From NCBI RefSeq assembly GCF_017876295.1, contig NZ_JAGINT010000001.1:2108001-2172000 (forward strand): a stretch of 64,000 nucleotides of DNA. The letters are read 5' to 3'. The translations under genes were made by a program, and so were the position numbers. The stretch's first letter is position 1. The number at the start of each line of letters is the position of its first letter. Shown piece by piece: positions 7,573-64,000 of this stretch. The notes under the pieces are model-generated. The model was not told where the DNA came from. It made no database searches and saw only the letters and a program-made list of their open reading frames with translations. Origin of the DNA: Kribbella aluminosa. Its GTDB lineage: Bacteria > Actinomycetota > Actinomycetes > Propionibacteriales > Kribbellaceae.

Positions 7573-7887
7573 TCAGCCGTAGACGATCCGTCGCAGCTGC
7601 CGGGCGGAGAGTTCGGGCGAGCGGACCGGCCAGTGCCGGAGCTCGGTGCCGAGCCGGGCGAAGATCTCGTCGTTGCGAGCACCGTAGGTCTGCAGCTCAC
7701 GGTGCCGGCGCCGGACGTAGTCCTCGGTCGTCTCGGTGAAATAGGCCAGTACGTCGGCGACCACGCGTCGCGCGACCTCGGCCGGCAGCCCGGTCGTCCG
7801 GCTGACCTGATCGGCCAGCTCGTCGACCGGCTCCACGGCCGCCGCCTCACTGATCACCCGTCCACCATGCAGTGTTTCGAGGTCCAC
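7573..7887 (-). CDS. Small conserved-looking helical protein of unknown function
   Basis: About 104 residues, charged and predicted mostly helical (ADQVSRTTGLPAEVARRVV, then YFTETTEDYVRRRHRELQ). No catalytic motif, signal peptide or membrane segment. The TTG at 7893 is only a few bases from GGAG; the in-frame GTG at 7887 has GGAG at a better distance, so I prefer it. It is 39 bp upstream of glmS on the same strand and probably co-transcribed. I do not recognise the family and assign no function. Confidence 0.65.
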   Translation of the reverse strand: MDLETLHGGRVISEAAAVEPVDELADQVSRTTGLPAEVARRVVADVLAYFTETTEDYVRRRHRELQTYGARNDEIFARLGTELRHWPVRSPELSARQLRRIVYG

Positions 7888-7950
7888 CGCCAAGCTCCTG
7901 CCCGAAATCGGGCAAATTTCCTGCTTTGTCAGGAGTTACCCCCGCACACC

Positions 7951-8003
7951 TTGAGAAGCCACCAACCACTTTTCGCCGCGAGAACTGGTTGGTGGCTTCT
8001 CAA
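7951..8003. terminator. Perfect 18-bp inverted repeat downstream of nucS
   Basis: TTGAGAAGCCACCAACCA (7951-7968) is perfectly complementary to 7986-8003 with a 17-base loop. It begins seven bases beyond the nucS stop codon on the minus strand and precedes the next minus-strand gene, so a terminator is the likeliest role. It is unusually long and AT-rich for this genome. Confidence 0.75.
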
Positions 8004-8009
8004 AGTCGG

Positions 8010-13282: not shown

Positions 13283-13301
13283 AACCGGGCCCGCCGGCAA
13301 T

Positions 13302-13382
13302 CTCGCTCGGCAGACCCGCTGGGCCAACCTCGCTCGGCAGACCCGCTGGGCCAACCTCGCTGGGCAGACCCGCTGGGTCGAT
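13302..13382. repeat. Three tandem 27-bp repeats
   Basis: Units at 13302-13328, 13329-13355 and 13356-13382; the first two are identical (core CTCGGCAGACCCGCTGGGCC) and the third carries four changes. They lie in the convergent gap between the frameshifted gene and the PhyH gene, so they are probably non-coding, although the longer frame would translate them as SLGRPAGPT repeats. Confidence 0.85.
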
Positions 13383-31082: not shown

Positions 31083-31844
31083 ATGGATATGCAGACCGCG
31101 TTGCGCGAGCTCGGCGTGACCGACGACGTACTGACGCCGGCCGAGAAGGAACAGCTGGACCGCGACGGGTTCCTTCCGCTGGAGGGGATCCTGTCGGCGG
31201 AGGAAGTGTCCGCGATCGTCAAACGCCTCGCCGAACTGACCGCGGCCGAGGGAGACCGGGCCGGCCTCGAAGTACACCAGGAGAAGGGCACGGACCGGCT
31301 GGCGGACCTGGTGAACAAGGACCCGATGTTCGAGGTCTGCTTCAGCCATCCGCGGGTGCTGGCCGCGATGCACCACGTGCTCGGCGAGTTCCGCCTGTCG
31401 TCCCTCAACAGCCGCGCAGCCCTATCCGGCCAGGGCCACCAGGCCCTCCACACCGACTTCGGCCACCCCGTCGAACCCGGCGCCTACCAGGTCTGCAACT
31501 CCATCTGGCTCCTCGACGACTTCACCCCCGAGAACGGCGCCACCCGAGTGGTCCCCGGCTCCCACCGCCGCGGCACCATGCCCGCCGACGAAATGCCCGA
31601 CCCCGCCGCCCCACACCCCGACGAAATCCAGCTGACCGCCCCCGCGGGCACGGTCGTCATCTTCAACAGCCACCTCTGGCACGGCGGCACCCAGAACCAC
31701 ACCCAATCTCCGCGCCGAGCCCTCCACTCCTACTTCACCCACCGCCACCTACCCCAGCAACTGGACCAGCAGACCTACCTCCGCGTAAACACCTACAACC
31801 GCCTAACCCCCGCCCAACACTTCATCCTCGACGTCACCGGTTAG
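31083..31844 (+). CDS. Phytanoyl-CoA dioxygenase (PhyH) family protein 2
   Basis: 253 residues from ATG 31083, preceded by GGGAAGGGA. Iron ligands HTD in ALHTDFGHP, distal histidine in FNSHLWHGGTQN, 2-oxoglutarate arginine in SPRRALHSYF; VVPGSHRRG is also typical. Sequence differs strongly from PhyH 1, so it is not a recent duplicate, yet the gene order (divergent AraC) is the same. The substrate is unknown. The stop codon lies in a 21-bp tandem duplication. Confidence 0.87.
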   Translation: MDMQTALRELGVTDDVLTPAEKEQLDRDGFLPLEGILSAEEVSAIVKRLAELTAAEGDRAGLEVHQEKGTDRLADLVNKDPMFEVCFSHPRVLAAMHHVLGEFRLSSLNSRAALSGQGHQALHTDFGHPVEPGAYQVCNSIWLLDDFTPENGATRVVPGSHRRGTMPADEMPDPAAPHPDEIQLTAPAGTVVIFNSHLWHGGTQNHTQSPRRALHSYFTHRHLPQQLDQQTYLRVNTYNRLTPAQHFILDVTG

Positions 31845-31864
31845 ATCCTCGACGTCACCGGTTA
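31824..31864. repeat. Tandem 21-bp duplication across the PhyH 2 stop codon
   Basis: ATCCTCGACGTCACCGGTTA occurs at 31824-31843 and again at 31845-31864. The first copy contains the stop codon TAG (31842-31844). The second is non-coding. Confidence 0.9.
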
Positions 31865-31928
31865 CCTCGAATCCGTGGAGGTCGGCCCGCGTCAGCCGCC
31901 CAGGTCGGCGCGAATCGCGAGCAATCCA

Positions 31929-32015
31929 AGGGGTTAACCTCTGACATGGCTCCTTCGCCCACTGCATGCCAGGGGCGAAGGAACCATCTCAGGGGCTAAC
32001 CCCTGACATGGCTCC
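31929..32015. repeat. Palindromic repeat pair around a 14/15-bp hairpin
   Basis: A 25-bp block, AGGGGTTAACCTCTGACATG plus GCTCC (31929-31953), recurs at 31991-32015 with 23 of 25 bases the same; the second has the exact palindrome TCAGGGG-CTAA-CCCCTGA (31989-32006). Between them 31946-31960 pairs with 31973-31987 (one mismatch, 12-base loop). The gap separates two convergent genes, so the hairpin can terminate both; the flanking palindromes look like a REP-type element. Confidence 0.7.
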
Positions 32016-32066
32016 CAGACCAGGAGGAACCGGCGGGTAATCCTCCCCAGATGGTCGTTCTGTGCG

Positions 32067-59393: not shown

Positions 59394-60590
59394 TCAGGTG
59401 GGTTGGCCCGTGTAGATACCCATGGCGCGGAAGCGGAGCGCGGGGGCGGCGTACTCCTCGAGGGCGTGGGCGGTCCAGCCGATCATCCGGGCGATCGCGA
59501 ACAGGGCGTCGCCGGCGTCGGGGCGGAAGTGGTACGCATGCATGATCGCGGCGATCGCGAGGTCGCTGTTCGGGAACGTGGGGGTGTGCTCGGCGATCGC
59601 CCGGACGCTGCCGACGATCGGGTGGTCGCCGAGGAGATCAAGCAGCACTTCGGCGCGCGGGTCGTGGTGCTGGTAGATCCGGTGCCCGAAGCCGGGGATC
59701 GGTTTGCCGGAGCGCAACTGGTCCGACAACGCCTTCAGCGGGTCGTGTTTCGCGCGGTCCAGGAACTCGTAAGCGAGGGTCGGGGCGGCGCCGTGGTACT
59801 GCCCGTCGAGCGCGCCGAGGCCGGCGGAGATCACGGCGTACAGGTTCGCGCGTGCGCTGGCGGCGACGCGGGCCGCGACGGTGGAGACCGCGAGACCGTG
59901 GTCGGCGAGCAGGATCAGTGCGGCGTCGAGCAGCTCCGGGCGCGGCTCGTCGTCGGAGAGCTTCGGCCAGAGCCGGGCGCCCAGTGTCGTTGCGCCGTAC
60001 GCCGTCTTGCCCGGGAGCGCCGTCACCACCGTCCCGATCAACCGCCCCGCCGCAGCCGTCACCGAGCCCGGTGACAGGTCGAACCGCAACGGATCAGCGG
60101 CCCCCAACACGGCCACCGCCACCCGCACTCGATCCGTCAACCGAGCCCCTTCCGGCACCACCTCCATCCCCGCCCGAGCCAACTCCACCCCGTGCCGCTC
60201 AACCTCGAACACCCCACCAACATCCGGTTGATTGGTCCCCTCGGACACCCCGCCAACATCCGGTTGATTGGTCCAAAGGAGGGTGGCCACCTCGGCGACT
60301 GTCGCGGTGGTGGCGAGGGTGCGGGCAGAGTGGCCTCGGTAGTAGAGCTCGTCGTTCTCGAGGAGGGTCAGTTGGGATTCGATGCGTTCTACTACGCCGG
60401 AGTGTTCTATCGAGCGTGCGGCCAGGCGCTCCACCTCGTCGGCCGAGAAGAGGCTGCCGCGGCGGCCGCGGGCTCGGGTGCTGGTGAGCAGGCCTCGGCT
60501 GACGTACGCGTAGACGGTGGCGGGTTTGACCTGGAGGCGGCGTGCGACCTCGGCGGTGGTCAGGTAATTCTCGTCACCTTCGGCCGGCAT
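59394..60590 (-). CDS. Citrate synthase-family enzyme with N-terminal helix-turn-helix
   Basis: 398 residues from ATG 60588-60590 (GAGGAG five bases upstream). Residues about 8-58 are a MerR/excisionase-type HTH (LTTAEVARRLQVKPATVYAY). The citrate synthase part keeps YHGAAPTLAYEF, GFGHRIYQHHDPR and NSDLAIAAIM with the catalytic His, His and Asp, so it may be active. A 12-residue tandem repeat, TNQPDVGGVSEG and TNQPDVGGVFE, is inserted near residue 107. It is divergent from a second citrate synthase across palindromes that its HTH could bind. Confidence 0.87.
   Translation of the reverse strand: MPAEGDENYLTTAEVARRLQVKPATVYAYVSRGLLTSTRARGRRGSLFSADEVERLAARSIEHSGVVERIESQLTLLENDELYYRGHSARTLATTATVAEVATLLWTNQPDVGGVSEGTNQPDVGGVFEVERHGVELARAGMEVVPEGARLTDRVRVAVAVLGAADPLRFDLSPGSVTAAAGRLIGTVVTALPGKTAYGATTLGARLWPKLSDDEPRPELLDAALILLADHGLAVSTVAARVAASARANLYAVISAGLGALDGQYHGAAPTLAYEFLDRAKHDPLKALSDQLRSGKPIPGFGHRIYQHHDPRAEVLLDLLGDHPIVGSVRAIAEHTPTFPNSDLAIAAIMHAYHFRPDAGDALFAIARMIGWTAHALEEYAAPALRFRAMGIYTGQPT
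60209..60274. repeat. In-frame tandem duplication inside the HTH-citrate synthase
   Basis: A 30-bp block with core CCAACATCCGGTTGATTGGT recurs 36 bp apart (60209-60238 and 60245-60274) with one base difference, keeping the reading frame (12 codons). Confidence 0.9.
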
Positions 60591-60663: not shown

Positions 60664-61803
60664 ATGTCAACAACGATCACTGTTCCGCCCGGTCTGCGCA
60701 ACGTCGTCGTCACCGAGACCACCCTCGGCGACGTCCGGGGTGACGAGGGGTTCTACCACTACCGGCAGTACTCGGCGATCGACCTCGCCAAGTCCAAGAC
60801 GCTCGAAGACGTCTGGTACCTGATGTTCGAGGGCCGCCTCCCGACCGACGCCGAGCGCGCCCGGTTCGTCGCGGAGCTTGCCCCGCTGCGCGTCCTCCCC
60901 GACGAGGTCCGCGCCGTACTCCCAGCGATCGCCGCCGCCGGACCGACGTTCAATCCGCTCGCCGGCCTCCGTACGGCGCTCTCCCTGCTCGCGGCGGTTC
61001 GCGCCCTGCCGCCGCTCTGGGACGTGGACCCGGCCCGCCGGAAGGCCGACGCGATGCTCGTCTGCGCGGTGACGCCGACGATCCTCGCCGCGCTCTATCG
61101 CCTCCGCGAAGGGCAGCAACCGCTGGAGCCGCGCGCCGACCTCACCGCCGCGGAGAACTGGCTGTACCTGGTCACCGGCGAGGAGCCGACCGCCGTCCAC
61201 ACGACCGCGATCGAGCACTACCTGGTCTCGACCGTCGACCACGGCTTCAACGCGTCCACCTTCACCGCCCGCGTCATCGCGTCCACCGGCGCAGACGTGG
61301 TGTCGGCAGTAGCCGGAGCGATCGGTGCGTTCTCCGGTCCGCTGCACGGCGGCGCCCCGGACCGCGCGCTCGCCAGCCTCGACGAGATCGGTACACCGGA
61401 CCGCATCGACGCATGGGTCCGGGCGAAGGTGTCGGCCGGCGACCGGATCATGGGCTTCGGGCACGCGGTGTACCGCACCGAGGACCCGCGCTCGCTGATG
61501 CTGCGCGACATCGCCCGCGGGATCGGCGGCGACCTGGTCGACTTCGCGACCACCGTCGAGCAGCGCATCGTCGACGTCCTCGCCGAACTCAAGCCGGGCC
61601 GCAACCTGTACGCGAACGTCGAGTTCTACGCCGGCGTCGTGATGGAACTGTGCGGCATCCCCCGCGCGATGTTCACCCCGACGTTCGCCGTCAGCCGCAT
61701 CATCGGCTGGGCCGCCAACATCCTCGAACAGTCCACCGACCCCAAAATCATCCGCCCCGCCGCCTCCTACGTCGGCCCCCACCCACCAACCCCAATCCCC
61801 TGA
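60664..61803 (+). CDS. Citrate synthase-family enzyme 2
   Basis: 379 residues from ATG 60664. Motifs GPLHGGAPD and GFGHAVYRTEDPRS give the two active histidines; the catalytic acid position reads NVEFYAGV, Glu instead of the canonical Asp of NVDFYSG. It condenses acetyl-CoA (or propionyl-CoA) with oxaloacetate; citrate versus 2-methylcitrate cannot be settled. The pairing with an HTH-containing paralogue suggests coordinated or autoregulated expression. A Pro-rich tail ends the protein just before a repeat array. Confidence 0.9.
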   Translation: MSTTITVPPGLRNVVVTETTLGDVRGDEGFYHYRQYSAIDLAKSKTLEDVWYLMFEGRLPTDAERARFVAELAPLRVLPDEVRAVLPAIAAAGPTFNPLAGLRTALSLLAAVRALPPLWDVDPARRKADAMLVCAVTPTILAALYRLREGQQPLEPRADLTAAENWLYLVTGEEPTAVHTTAIEHYLVSTVDHGFNASTFTARVIASTGADVVSAVAGAIGAFSGPLHGGAPDRALASLDEIGTPDRIDAWVRAKVSAGDRIMGFGHAVYRTEDPRSLMLRDIARGIGGDLVDFATTVEQRIVDVLAELKPGRNLYANVEFYAGVVMELCGIPRAMFTPTFAVSRIIGWAANILEQSTDPKIIRPAASYVGPHPPTPIP

Positions 61804-61859
61804 CCAACCGCCCCTTGCCCCTCAACTGGCGCGTCGCCCACCGACAATCCGACCAGACA

Positions 61860-62554
61860 ACCCTCCACCTGCCCAGGCAACCCTCCACGTGCGCGGGTGA
61901 CCCTCTACGTGCGCGGGTGACCCTCCACCTGCCCGGACAACCCTCCACGTGCGCGGGCAGGCGTCCATCCGGGTGGGCAACCCTCTGCTCGAGTGGGTAA
62001 CCCTCCACCCGAGTGGGGGCCTTGGCGCTTCGGTGGGTGGGTTGGGGGAGGGGCGGCTGGGGGTGTTCGTGGCGATGCTGGAGGGGTTGCCCACTCAATT
62101 GGTGGGTTGCCTACCCAGAATCCGAGTGGGCGACCCTCCACCTGAGTGGGCAACCCTACTGCTCGAGTAGGCGACCCCTCCGCCTGTGCGGCGACGCCCT
62201 CCGTCTGTCTGAGTGGGCCACCCTCCGTCTGCGCGGGCAGTCGCCGATCCGGGTGGGGCAAACCTCCGTCTGCGCGGGCAACCCTCCGTCTGCAGGGGCA
62301 TCCTCCGCCTGCACGGGGGCATCCTCCATCTGAGTGGGCAGCCCTCCAACCGAGCGGGCAAACGTCCGACGGAGCGCGCAGACCTCCAACGGAGCGGGCA
62401 AGCCTTCAACGGAGCGGGCAAACCTCCAGCGGAGCGGCAAACCTCCAGCGGAGCGGCAAACCTTCAACGGAGTGGCAAGCCTCCAGCGGAGCGGCAAGCC
62501 TTCAGCGGAGCGGCAAGCCTTCAGCGGAGCGGCAAGCCTTCAGCGGAGCGGGCA
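61860..62554. repeat. Degenerate 19-21 bp repeat array, about 30 units
   Basis: The 61804-62579 stretch has no gene I can support. Block 1 (61860-62019) holds eight units in exact 20-bp register, for example ACCCTCCACGTGCGCGGGTG. Block 2 (62113-62554) holds about 22 units that run from 20-21 bp (ACCCTCCACCTGAGTGGGCA) to nearly identical 19 bp (AGCCTTCAGCGGAGCGGCA). Block 2 units 3, 5, 7 and 10 vary in length (up to 26 bp). Many units hold a small palindromic core such as CCACnCGnGTGG. All six frames read through in places, but unit length is not a multiple of three, so it does not encode a repeat protein. Confidence 0.9.
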
Positions 62555-62579
62555 GAGCTCCAGTTCAGGGGGCGGCTGG

Positions 62580-64000
62580 TTAGGTGAAGTGCATGATGCC
62601 GTCGGTGACTGGTTTGAGGTGGAGGGAGAGGAGGTCGCGGGGGTAGTTCTGGCGGAGGCGCCAGGGGCCTTGGGTGCCTTGGCGGGGGAGGATGGAGGCG
62701 GCGCGGCGGATGTAGCCGGAGGAGAGGTCGACCACCGGGCGGGGTGGGGCGTCGTACTCGGCTGGGTCGACCTCGGGGCGGCAGGTGTGGGTGCCGGTGG
62801 CGGACAGGTGGTTGAGGAGGCGGCAGACGTACTGCGAGGTGAGGTCCGAGCGCAGTGTCCACGAGTTGTTGGTGTACCCGATGCACCAGGCGAGGTTCGG
62901 TACGCCGCTGAGCATCATGCCTTTGTAGACGAACGTGTCGTGCGGCGCGACCGACGAGCCGTCGACGGTGAGCTTGATGTTGCCGAGTGCAACCATGCGG
63001 AGGCCGGTCGCGGTGACCACCAGATCGGCCTCCAGCTCGGCACCGGATCGCAACCGTAGACCGGTCGGGGTGAACCGCTCGATCTCGTCGGTCACCACCG
63101 AGGCCGACCCGTCCCGCAGCGCCTTGAAGAGATCCGCGTCCGGGACCAGGCAGAGCCGCTGGTCCCACGGTTTGTACAGCGGCGTGAAGTGCGGATCGAC
63201 CGGGATCGACGGCGGCAACTGCCGGGCCACGCCGCTGTTCAGCAGCCACGCCGCATGCGCCGGCCATCGCCGGAAAGCGCTGTAGAACAAGGTGCTCAGC
63301 GCAACGTTCTTGCCGCGGATCACCCGGTGGGCGAGGTTCTCCGGCAGGACCGCGCGAATGCGGTCGGACAGCCCGTCGACAGCGGGGCGGGACGCCACGT
63401 AGCTCGGCGAGCGCTGCAGCATCGTCACGTGCTTCGCCGTACCGGCCATCGCCGGCACCAGCGTGACCGCGGTGGCGCCGCTGCCGATCACGACCACCCG
63501 CTGTCCGGTGTAGTCCAGGTCCGTGGGCCAGTGCTGCGGGTGCACGATCCGCCCGCGGAACTCGTCCCGCCCCTCGAAGTCGACCACATGCCCCGCGTCG
63601 TAGTCGTAGTACCCGCTGCACACGTAGAGGAACGAGCAGGTGTACGTCGTGTCAGCGGTGTGCACGGTCCACCTCGCGTCCGCCGACGACCACGATGCAC
63701 GGACGACGCGGGCGCCGTACCGGATGTGCTTGTCGATCCCGTACGCCGCTGCGGTCTCCCGCAGGTACGACAGGATCGACGGGCCGTCGGCGATCGCCTT
63801 CGCCGCTGTCCACGGGCGGAACGGGAACCCGAGCGTGAACATGTCCGAGTCCGACCGCACTCCCGGGTACCGGAACAGGTCCCAGGTGCCGCCGAGCGCA
63901 GCGCGCGCCTCGAGGACGGCGTACGTTCGGTCGGGGCAGCGGGTCTGCAGCCGGTACGCCGCTCCGATCCCGGACAGCCCCGCGCCGACGATCAGAACGT
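62580..64000 (-). CDS. Flavin-containing monooxygenase / Baeyer-Villiger-type (5' end outside window)
   Basis: At least 473 residues; the start lies beyond base 64000. The visible N-terminal FAD site is VGAGLSGIGAAYRLQTR, followed by GGTWDLFRYPGVRSDSDMFT, which fits class B monooxygenases, and a second Rossmann motif VVIGSGATAVTLVPAMAG for NADPH. The fingerprint FEGRDEFRGRIVHPQHWP is FxGxxxHxxxW-like, with the usual His as His-Pro-Gln-His. Such enzymes insert oxygen next to ketones or oxidise N/S atoms. The C-terminus ends 25 bp from the repeat array. Confidence 0.87.
   Translation of the reverse strand, partial: VLIVGAGLSGIGAAYRLQTRCPDRTYAVLEARAALGGTWDLFRYPGVRSDSDMFTLGFPFRPWTAAKAIADGPSILSYLRETAAAYGIDKHIRYGARVVRASWSSADARWTVHTADTTYTCSFLYVCSGYYDYDAGHVVDFEGRDEFRGRIVHPQHWPTDLDYTGQRVVVIGSGATAVTLVPAMAGTAKHVTMLQRSPSYVASRPAVDGLSDRIRAVLPENLAHRVIRGKNVALSTLFYSAFRRWPAHAAWLLNSGVARQLPPSIPVDPHFTPLYKPWDQRLCLVPDADLFKALRDGSASVVTDEIERFTPTGLRLRSGAELEADLVVTATGLRMVALGNIKLTVDGSSVAPHDTFVYKGMMLSGVPNLAWCIGYTNNSWTLRSDLTSQYVCRLLNHLSATGTHTCRPEVDPAEYDAPPRPVVDLSSGYIRRAASILPRQGTQGPWRLRQNYPRDLLSLHLKPVTDGIMHFT

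Follow-up and report, generated by a model that had tools for sequence, protein, structure and literature searches.

What gave rise to the run of short tandem units that lies between a citrate synthase gene and a flavin monooxygenase gene in Kribbella aluminosa, and does this run do anything on its own? The locus belongs to a stretch of 64,000 nucleotides (hereafter 'the window'), and positions given without a contig or locus name refer to it. With a probability of roughly two in three, we favour the view that a dispersed palindrome of REP-like character gave rise to the array, a minisatellite, that the hairpins of this type are tolerated or useful as bidirectional ends, and that the array is passive. 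The mechanism by which the array formed would thus be ordinary and its origin unusual, and we regard the palindrome families as the more interesting object.

Architecture of the array and its seed palindrome

The convergent arrangement of the two genes, noted in a first-pass annotation made from the letters alone, is borne out by Pfam matches and a gene caller (Table 1), and the start codon of the monooxygenase is located at or past the end of the window. The plain citrate synthase gene has a divergent neighbour (positions 59394-60590, minus strand) in which a citrate synthase domain is located behind a helix-turn-helix (HTH_17, MerR-type, Pfam). The fused and plain genes are kept as an adjacent pair in most relatives, and the fused gene carries an in-frame 36-bp duplication (positions 60203-60274, 94% identical) in which TNQPDVGGV is repeated.

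The tandem organization reported in the first-pass annotation, namely eight 20-bp units, a break, and about 22 further units whose length falls to 19 bp, was recovered by two methods. Tandem repeats are reported by TRF over positions 61858-62563, with a period of 20 and then 19 bp, and wrap-around alignment to the unit AACCCTCCACCTGAGTGGGC gives a score of 548 versus at most 28 in shuffled sequences, with approximately 22 units of the right array at positions 62112-62573. Six units at positions 62420-62533 have the 19-bp length. Most units of the array differ from one another, and identity between neighbouring units climbs rightward in the right half (Spearman 0.57, p 0.005) with no trend in the left half, so that the increasing uniformity holds for the right half only. 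The proposal that the array grew in one direction, through slippage or unequal crossover, is well supported for the right half, where a uniform 19-bp end is set against an older 20-bp end. The array is also non-coding in any stable frame, as had been proposed, given that a period of 20 bp is not divisible by three and that the gene caller calls no gene there, though low-scoring ORFs cross it. It is not organized as a CRISPR, since its units abut with no spacers between them.

Other parts of the earlier description need to be replaced. A 90-bp interruption had been taken for a break in the array; it actually consists of a G-rich spacer followed by the left arm, in inverted orientation, of a near-perfect 75-bp palindrome. 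The arms of this palindrome (positions 62084-62119 and 62121-62156) are 36 nt each, are separated by one base, are 81% complementary, and each equal about 1.7 array units of 20 bp. A short palindrome, CCACnCGnGTGG, was said to be carried by many units, yet it occurs exactly once in the array, and the real palindrome arises between units and not within each unit. The array units on both sides share the orientation of the right arm. The region may therefore comprise two palindromes whose right arms were each amplified, in which case positions 62018-62082 would be the flank between them. We infer this arrangement rather than assert it because the palindrome at the left end is a weak match, and that one match is what would tie the left array to it.

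Table 1. Positions and supporting evidence for the features discussed in the text.
Feature	Position	Strand	Evidence or remarks
Family-2 palindrome (AGGGGTTAACCTCTGACATGG...GGGGCTAACCCCTGA), between another convergent pair	31926-32021		Match G000:C1:2139931-2140016; z -7.0 DNA, -7.7 RNA
Citrate synthase gene, left convergent neighbour	60664-61803	+	Pfam PF00285, E 9e-110; gene caller
Degenerate family-1 palindrome, left end of left array (putative seed)	61815-61884		R1 34.3 bits, E 3.9e-4 genome-wide, G000:C1:2169815-2169884
Left array: 8 units, exact 20-bp steps, right-arm orientation	61859-62017	+	Wrap-around alignment; TRF
G-rich spacer (57% G, 15% C), resembles right flank of other palindrome copies	62018-62082		Composition
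Family-1 palindrome, seed of right array	62083-62157		Inverted repeat; R1 83.3 bits, E 2.5e-16; fold z
Right array, older part: divergent units of ~20 bp	62158-62419	+	Wrap-around alignment
Right array, younger part: near-identical units, six of 19 bp and one of 20 bp	62420-62553	+	Wrap-around alignment; TRF period 19
Terminal remnant AGAGCTCCAGTTCAGGGGGC, similar to outer box beside other copies (e.g. CCTCCAGTTCAGGGGGC in L012)	62554-62574	+	Sequence comparison
Flavin monooxygenase gene, right convergent neighbour	62580-63998	-	Pfam FMO-like PF00743, Pyr_redox_3

Each half-array probably grew from one palindrome arm, through replication slippage or unequal crossover, with the most recent growth at the end spanning positions 62420-62553. 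The first-pass annotation had also raised repeated binding by a protein, and both the 20-bp periodicity of the left half and a nearly palindromic unit core, GGGTTGCCC, would be expected of binding sites for a DNA-binding protein. However, the units slip from a 20-bp to a 19-bp register and the youngest of them lack the GGGCAACCC core, which fits passive slippage and not spaced binding sites; moreover, the array and the palindrome are missing at this site in most relatives. We consider it very unlikely that the array serves as a repeated binding site, and most likely that it is passive.

The suggestion that the locus might yield a structured transcript stands in part. The palindrome at positions 62083-62157 folds far beyond shuffled sequences (DNA z -7.5, RNA z -8.7), whereas array stretches fold no better than shuffles (RNA z -0.5 and +0.9). 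That the array is transcribed as a structured RNA regulating a neighbour is a reading that the fold of the palindrome favours; the array units themselves, the absence of any Rfam match above threshold (there was one sub-threshold chance match), and a scan for the sigma-70 consensus that found no promoter-like site all speak against it, and we judge it highly improbable. An assembly artefact seems to us scarcely credible: the number of near-identical tandem units can be mis-assembled, but this 8.9 Mb genome is in two large contigs, the units are mostly unlike one another, and dozens of other loci, as well as the assemblies of other species, contain the unit.

A palindrome family dispersed through the genus

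When searched against the genome and its relatives, the unit proved to be part of a palindrome family (family 1), overlooked until then, that extends across the genome and the genus. The array used as a genome query recovers the palindrome at many sites, and frequently on the two strands simultaneously, as a palindrome should be. A covariance model built on 18 copies (R1) identifies 27 copies in this genome that score at least 60 bits, along with about ten of lower score. At an E value of 1e-5, R1 matches are present in 35 of 38 Kribbella genomes versus none of 110 sampled genomes from other genera of the order, and plasmid records gave no match. Not one of the 36 copies examined is centred in a called gene. 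The 75-bp hairpin is a genus-wide intergenic element whose copies are mostly located at the 3' ends of genes, and species differ in its presence at the same site. At one family-1 site (L217), the flank is highly variable between species and permitted no clean comparison. The earlier annotation would have been refuted by identical arrays at every convergent gene end, but this is not the pattern found: the feature shared by gene ends is the palindrome, of which only a few copies have grown into arrays.

Expansion has nonetheless happened elsewhere. At C1:3855756-3855949, eight near-identical 20-bp units (GGGTTGCCCCCTCACGTGGA) lead directly into a family-1 palindrome, and in four relatives (G012, G022, G048 and G005) a 21-bp unit of the genome's own hairpin, which is of a different family, is tandemly repeated beside that hairpin. 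Because of these additional arrays, we regard arm amplification as recurrent. A dispersed palindrome can seed a bacterial minisatellite from one of its arms, with more than one independent case here. Known bacterial minisatellites, or VNTRs, include the MIRU loci of Mycobacterium tuberculosis. The Kribbella array resembles these in being head-to-tail, intergenic and presumably variable in unit number, but its unit is shorter and derives from a palindrome that is dispersed. Unrelated minisatellites are also common near the palindromes. One of these, at L230:3070-3604, is a perfect 13-bp repeat (CGGCGTACGAGAT) of 41 copies, with a family-1 palindrome about 400 bases away. A 27-bp tandem repeat in another convergent gap of the window (positions 13298-13377) has no obvious relation to the palindrome families.

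Family 1, with its 27 strong copies, constitutes a set of dispersed extragenic palindromes, and it shares with REP/BIME elements and their RAYT partners the extragenic setting, high copy number, placement at 3' ends, occasional clustering or tandem arrangement, and species-specific families. REPs have been defined as elements of 20-40 bp with a terminal GTAG or CGTC, and a RAYT (Y1 transposase) is associated with the GTAG type, in a survey in which Kribbella and Streptomyces go unmentioned (PMC3733652). The Kribbella elements, in contrast, are 75-110 bp in length, and the 75-bp consensus has no terminal GTAG or CGTC, with GTAG present only inside some loops. They also differ in that this genome has no RAYT (PF01797). 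Matches to RAYT are found in only one of the 38 Kribbella genomes, while control genomes do yield them, and this absence here and from 37 of the 38 rules out RAYT as the present-day mobilizer; no enzyme that could take its place was identified. We found no description of these elements, REP-like palindromes that lack RAYT and have given rise to minisatellites, among open-access papers, which is weak evidence of novelty. The palindromes may spread, or be homogenized, by a route that does not use RAYT. The findings point to REP-like palindromes in a large actinobacterial genus that lack RAYT, the known REP mobilizer, and that turn over between close species.

Different hairpins at the same gene ends

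Family 1 is not the only hairpin family in this genus. Family 2 (TGAGGGGTTCACC...GGTGAACCCCTGA), which is distinct in sequence, gives 30 hits in this genome and zero to one in each of four relatives (G017, G013, G014 and G046), and a third family gives none here and 41 in each of G022 and G048; the hit counts for both families cover both strands, so that elements are fewer than hits. Among the 27 family-2 copies examined, one is inside a called ORF. The family-2 palindrome in Table 1 is part of a 241-bp stretch in whose place G017 and G002 have 22-26 bp, and at positions 31845-32066 G022 and G005 have yet another hairpin. In addition, an exact 21-bp tandem duplication (positions 31824-31864) extends over the stop codon of the gene adjoining this palindrome, and it is single copy in G017 and G002.

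The citrate synthase site varies in a similar manner. In 19 of 23 relatives, the stop codons of the two genes overlap or have no more than 23 bp between them, and there is no array (a gap value of -56 at this site is a computational floor and not a measured overlap). Among other relatives, G017 has a family-1 palindrome at this location, G007 has a family-2 palindrome together with its own unrelated minisatellite, G014 has a short remnant-like stretch, and G006 has 304 bp with no strong hairpin in them. Insertions that are absent from the corresponding site of relatives are therefore seen both here and at positions 31845-32066, as is typical of MITEs and other non-autonomous palindromic insertions, which are likewise short, non-coding and patchy among species. 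However, the whole Kribbella element is a hairpin and not a central segment bounded by two terminal repeats. Visual inspection of positions 31845-32066 shows no flanking duplication, and the flanks of the citrate synthase site are too diverged for a target-site duplication to be read. Mobility of the elements is accordingly suggested by their patchiness alone.

Two sites on the second contig (C2:1049400 and C2:1050496) carry a hairpin in many species, with strong scores that were never reached by control DNA of similar length (none of 60 window pieces scored 15 or more, and none of 120 coding pieces scored 13 or more). In this genome, both sites are family-1 palindromes, and between them is gene B (L233:4156-5091; G000:C2:1049555-1050490), which has a weak match to the antitoxin domain AbiEi_4. 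A TTATCCACAG motif is located upstream of gene B in many species. Gene B was considered as a general mobilizer and rejected, given that none of the other genes next to element loci is similar to it. Within a genome, these neighbouring sites are more alike than when genomes are paired at random, with a mean similarity score of 103 versus 56 (p 5e-5, uncorrected for relatedness), and G020 and G014 each have private sequences common to both sites. This likeness within genomes, together with the difference between species, looks like concerted turnover. Alternatively, for this pair of sites, the whole cassette (element, gene B, element) may have been transferred jointly. In six genomes (G010, G011, G023, G044, G045 and G008), gene B and both palindromes are absent together and the outer genes abut.

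We put forward, tentatively and at less than even odds, that Kribbella harbours an undescribed hairpin system without RAYT, whose families are replaced genome-wide in concert and which would present unrelated sequences of similar architecture at the same gene ends across species. If true, such replacement would imply an unknown mobilizer or homogenizing process as well as a selected role in ending transcription in both directions. Spread without RAYT, and selection on hairpins at convergent gene ends, would become testable in a culturable genus.

Placement of the elements and a possible role at gene ends

The elements favour the 3' ends of genes and avoid divergent promoters. Among 53 elements of the two families, 29 are located between convergent genes versus 15 of 111 background gaps (p 1e-7), 22 versus 63 are between tandem genes, and two versus 33 are between divergent genes (p 7e-5), where background gaps are those of at least 60 bp in 264 kb sampled from the genome. 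The same bias is also expected from purifying selection against insertion near promoters.

Palindromes may thus persist at 3' ends either because they are harmless there or because they are useful as putative bidirectional transcription-end hairpins. The flanks of the elements are C-rich on the left and G-rich on the right in the convergent and in both tandem orientations, with control gaps near zero, and so each strand meets a C-rich stretch ahead of the hairpin. A C-rich, G-poor strand upstream is what a Rho-dependent end would present. The terminator reading has no exclusive claim on the switch from C to G, which also accompanies tandem genes in either direction. Nor does the hairpin have the form of an intrinsic terminator, since it has no T-run and no terminator-like site was found within positions 61700-62700. 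The putative two-way end would therefore combine a C-rich approach on both strands with a GC-rich hairpin that lacks a T-run. Hairpin terminators without a U-tract are known, as are Rho-dependent ends with a C-rich approach. The Kribbella elements resemble these in that convergent genes are separated by a GC-rich hairpin and that the strand upstream is C-rich on each side, but ordinary terminators share no sequence across dozens of loci, as the Kribbella hairpins do.

The principal competing explanation is that the palindromes are purely selfish or neutral non-autonomous mobile elements, that 3' ends merely tolerate them, and that the array is junk amplification. The patchy, lineage-specific families and the 22-26 bp gaps that stand in place of the 241-bp stretch are in keeping with this explanation. 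However, the stems of family 2 contain 23 compensatory cells versus 8.2 in shuffled alignments, a value equalled by none of 500 shuffles, which suggests that stem pairs are kept; family 1 has hardly any compensatory change, and an alignment (A3) in which both strands of each palindrome are mixed was left out of the covariation analysis. The recurrence of hairpins unrelated in sequence at the same gene ends also hints at a need for a hairpin there. We regard the selfish or neutral explanation as a serious contender, only somewhat short of even odds, and on account of this recurrence we lean slightly towards hairpins that are useful rather than merely tolerated. A further strong hairpin of other sequence (ACCTTGAGAAGCCACCAACCA...TGGTTGGTGGCTTCTCAAAGT) is located between two tandem genes at positions 7858-8009 of the window.
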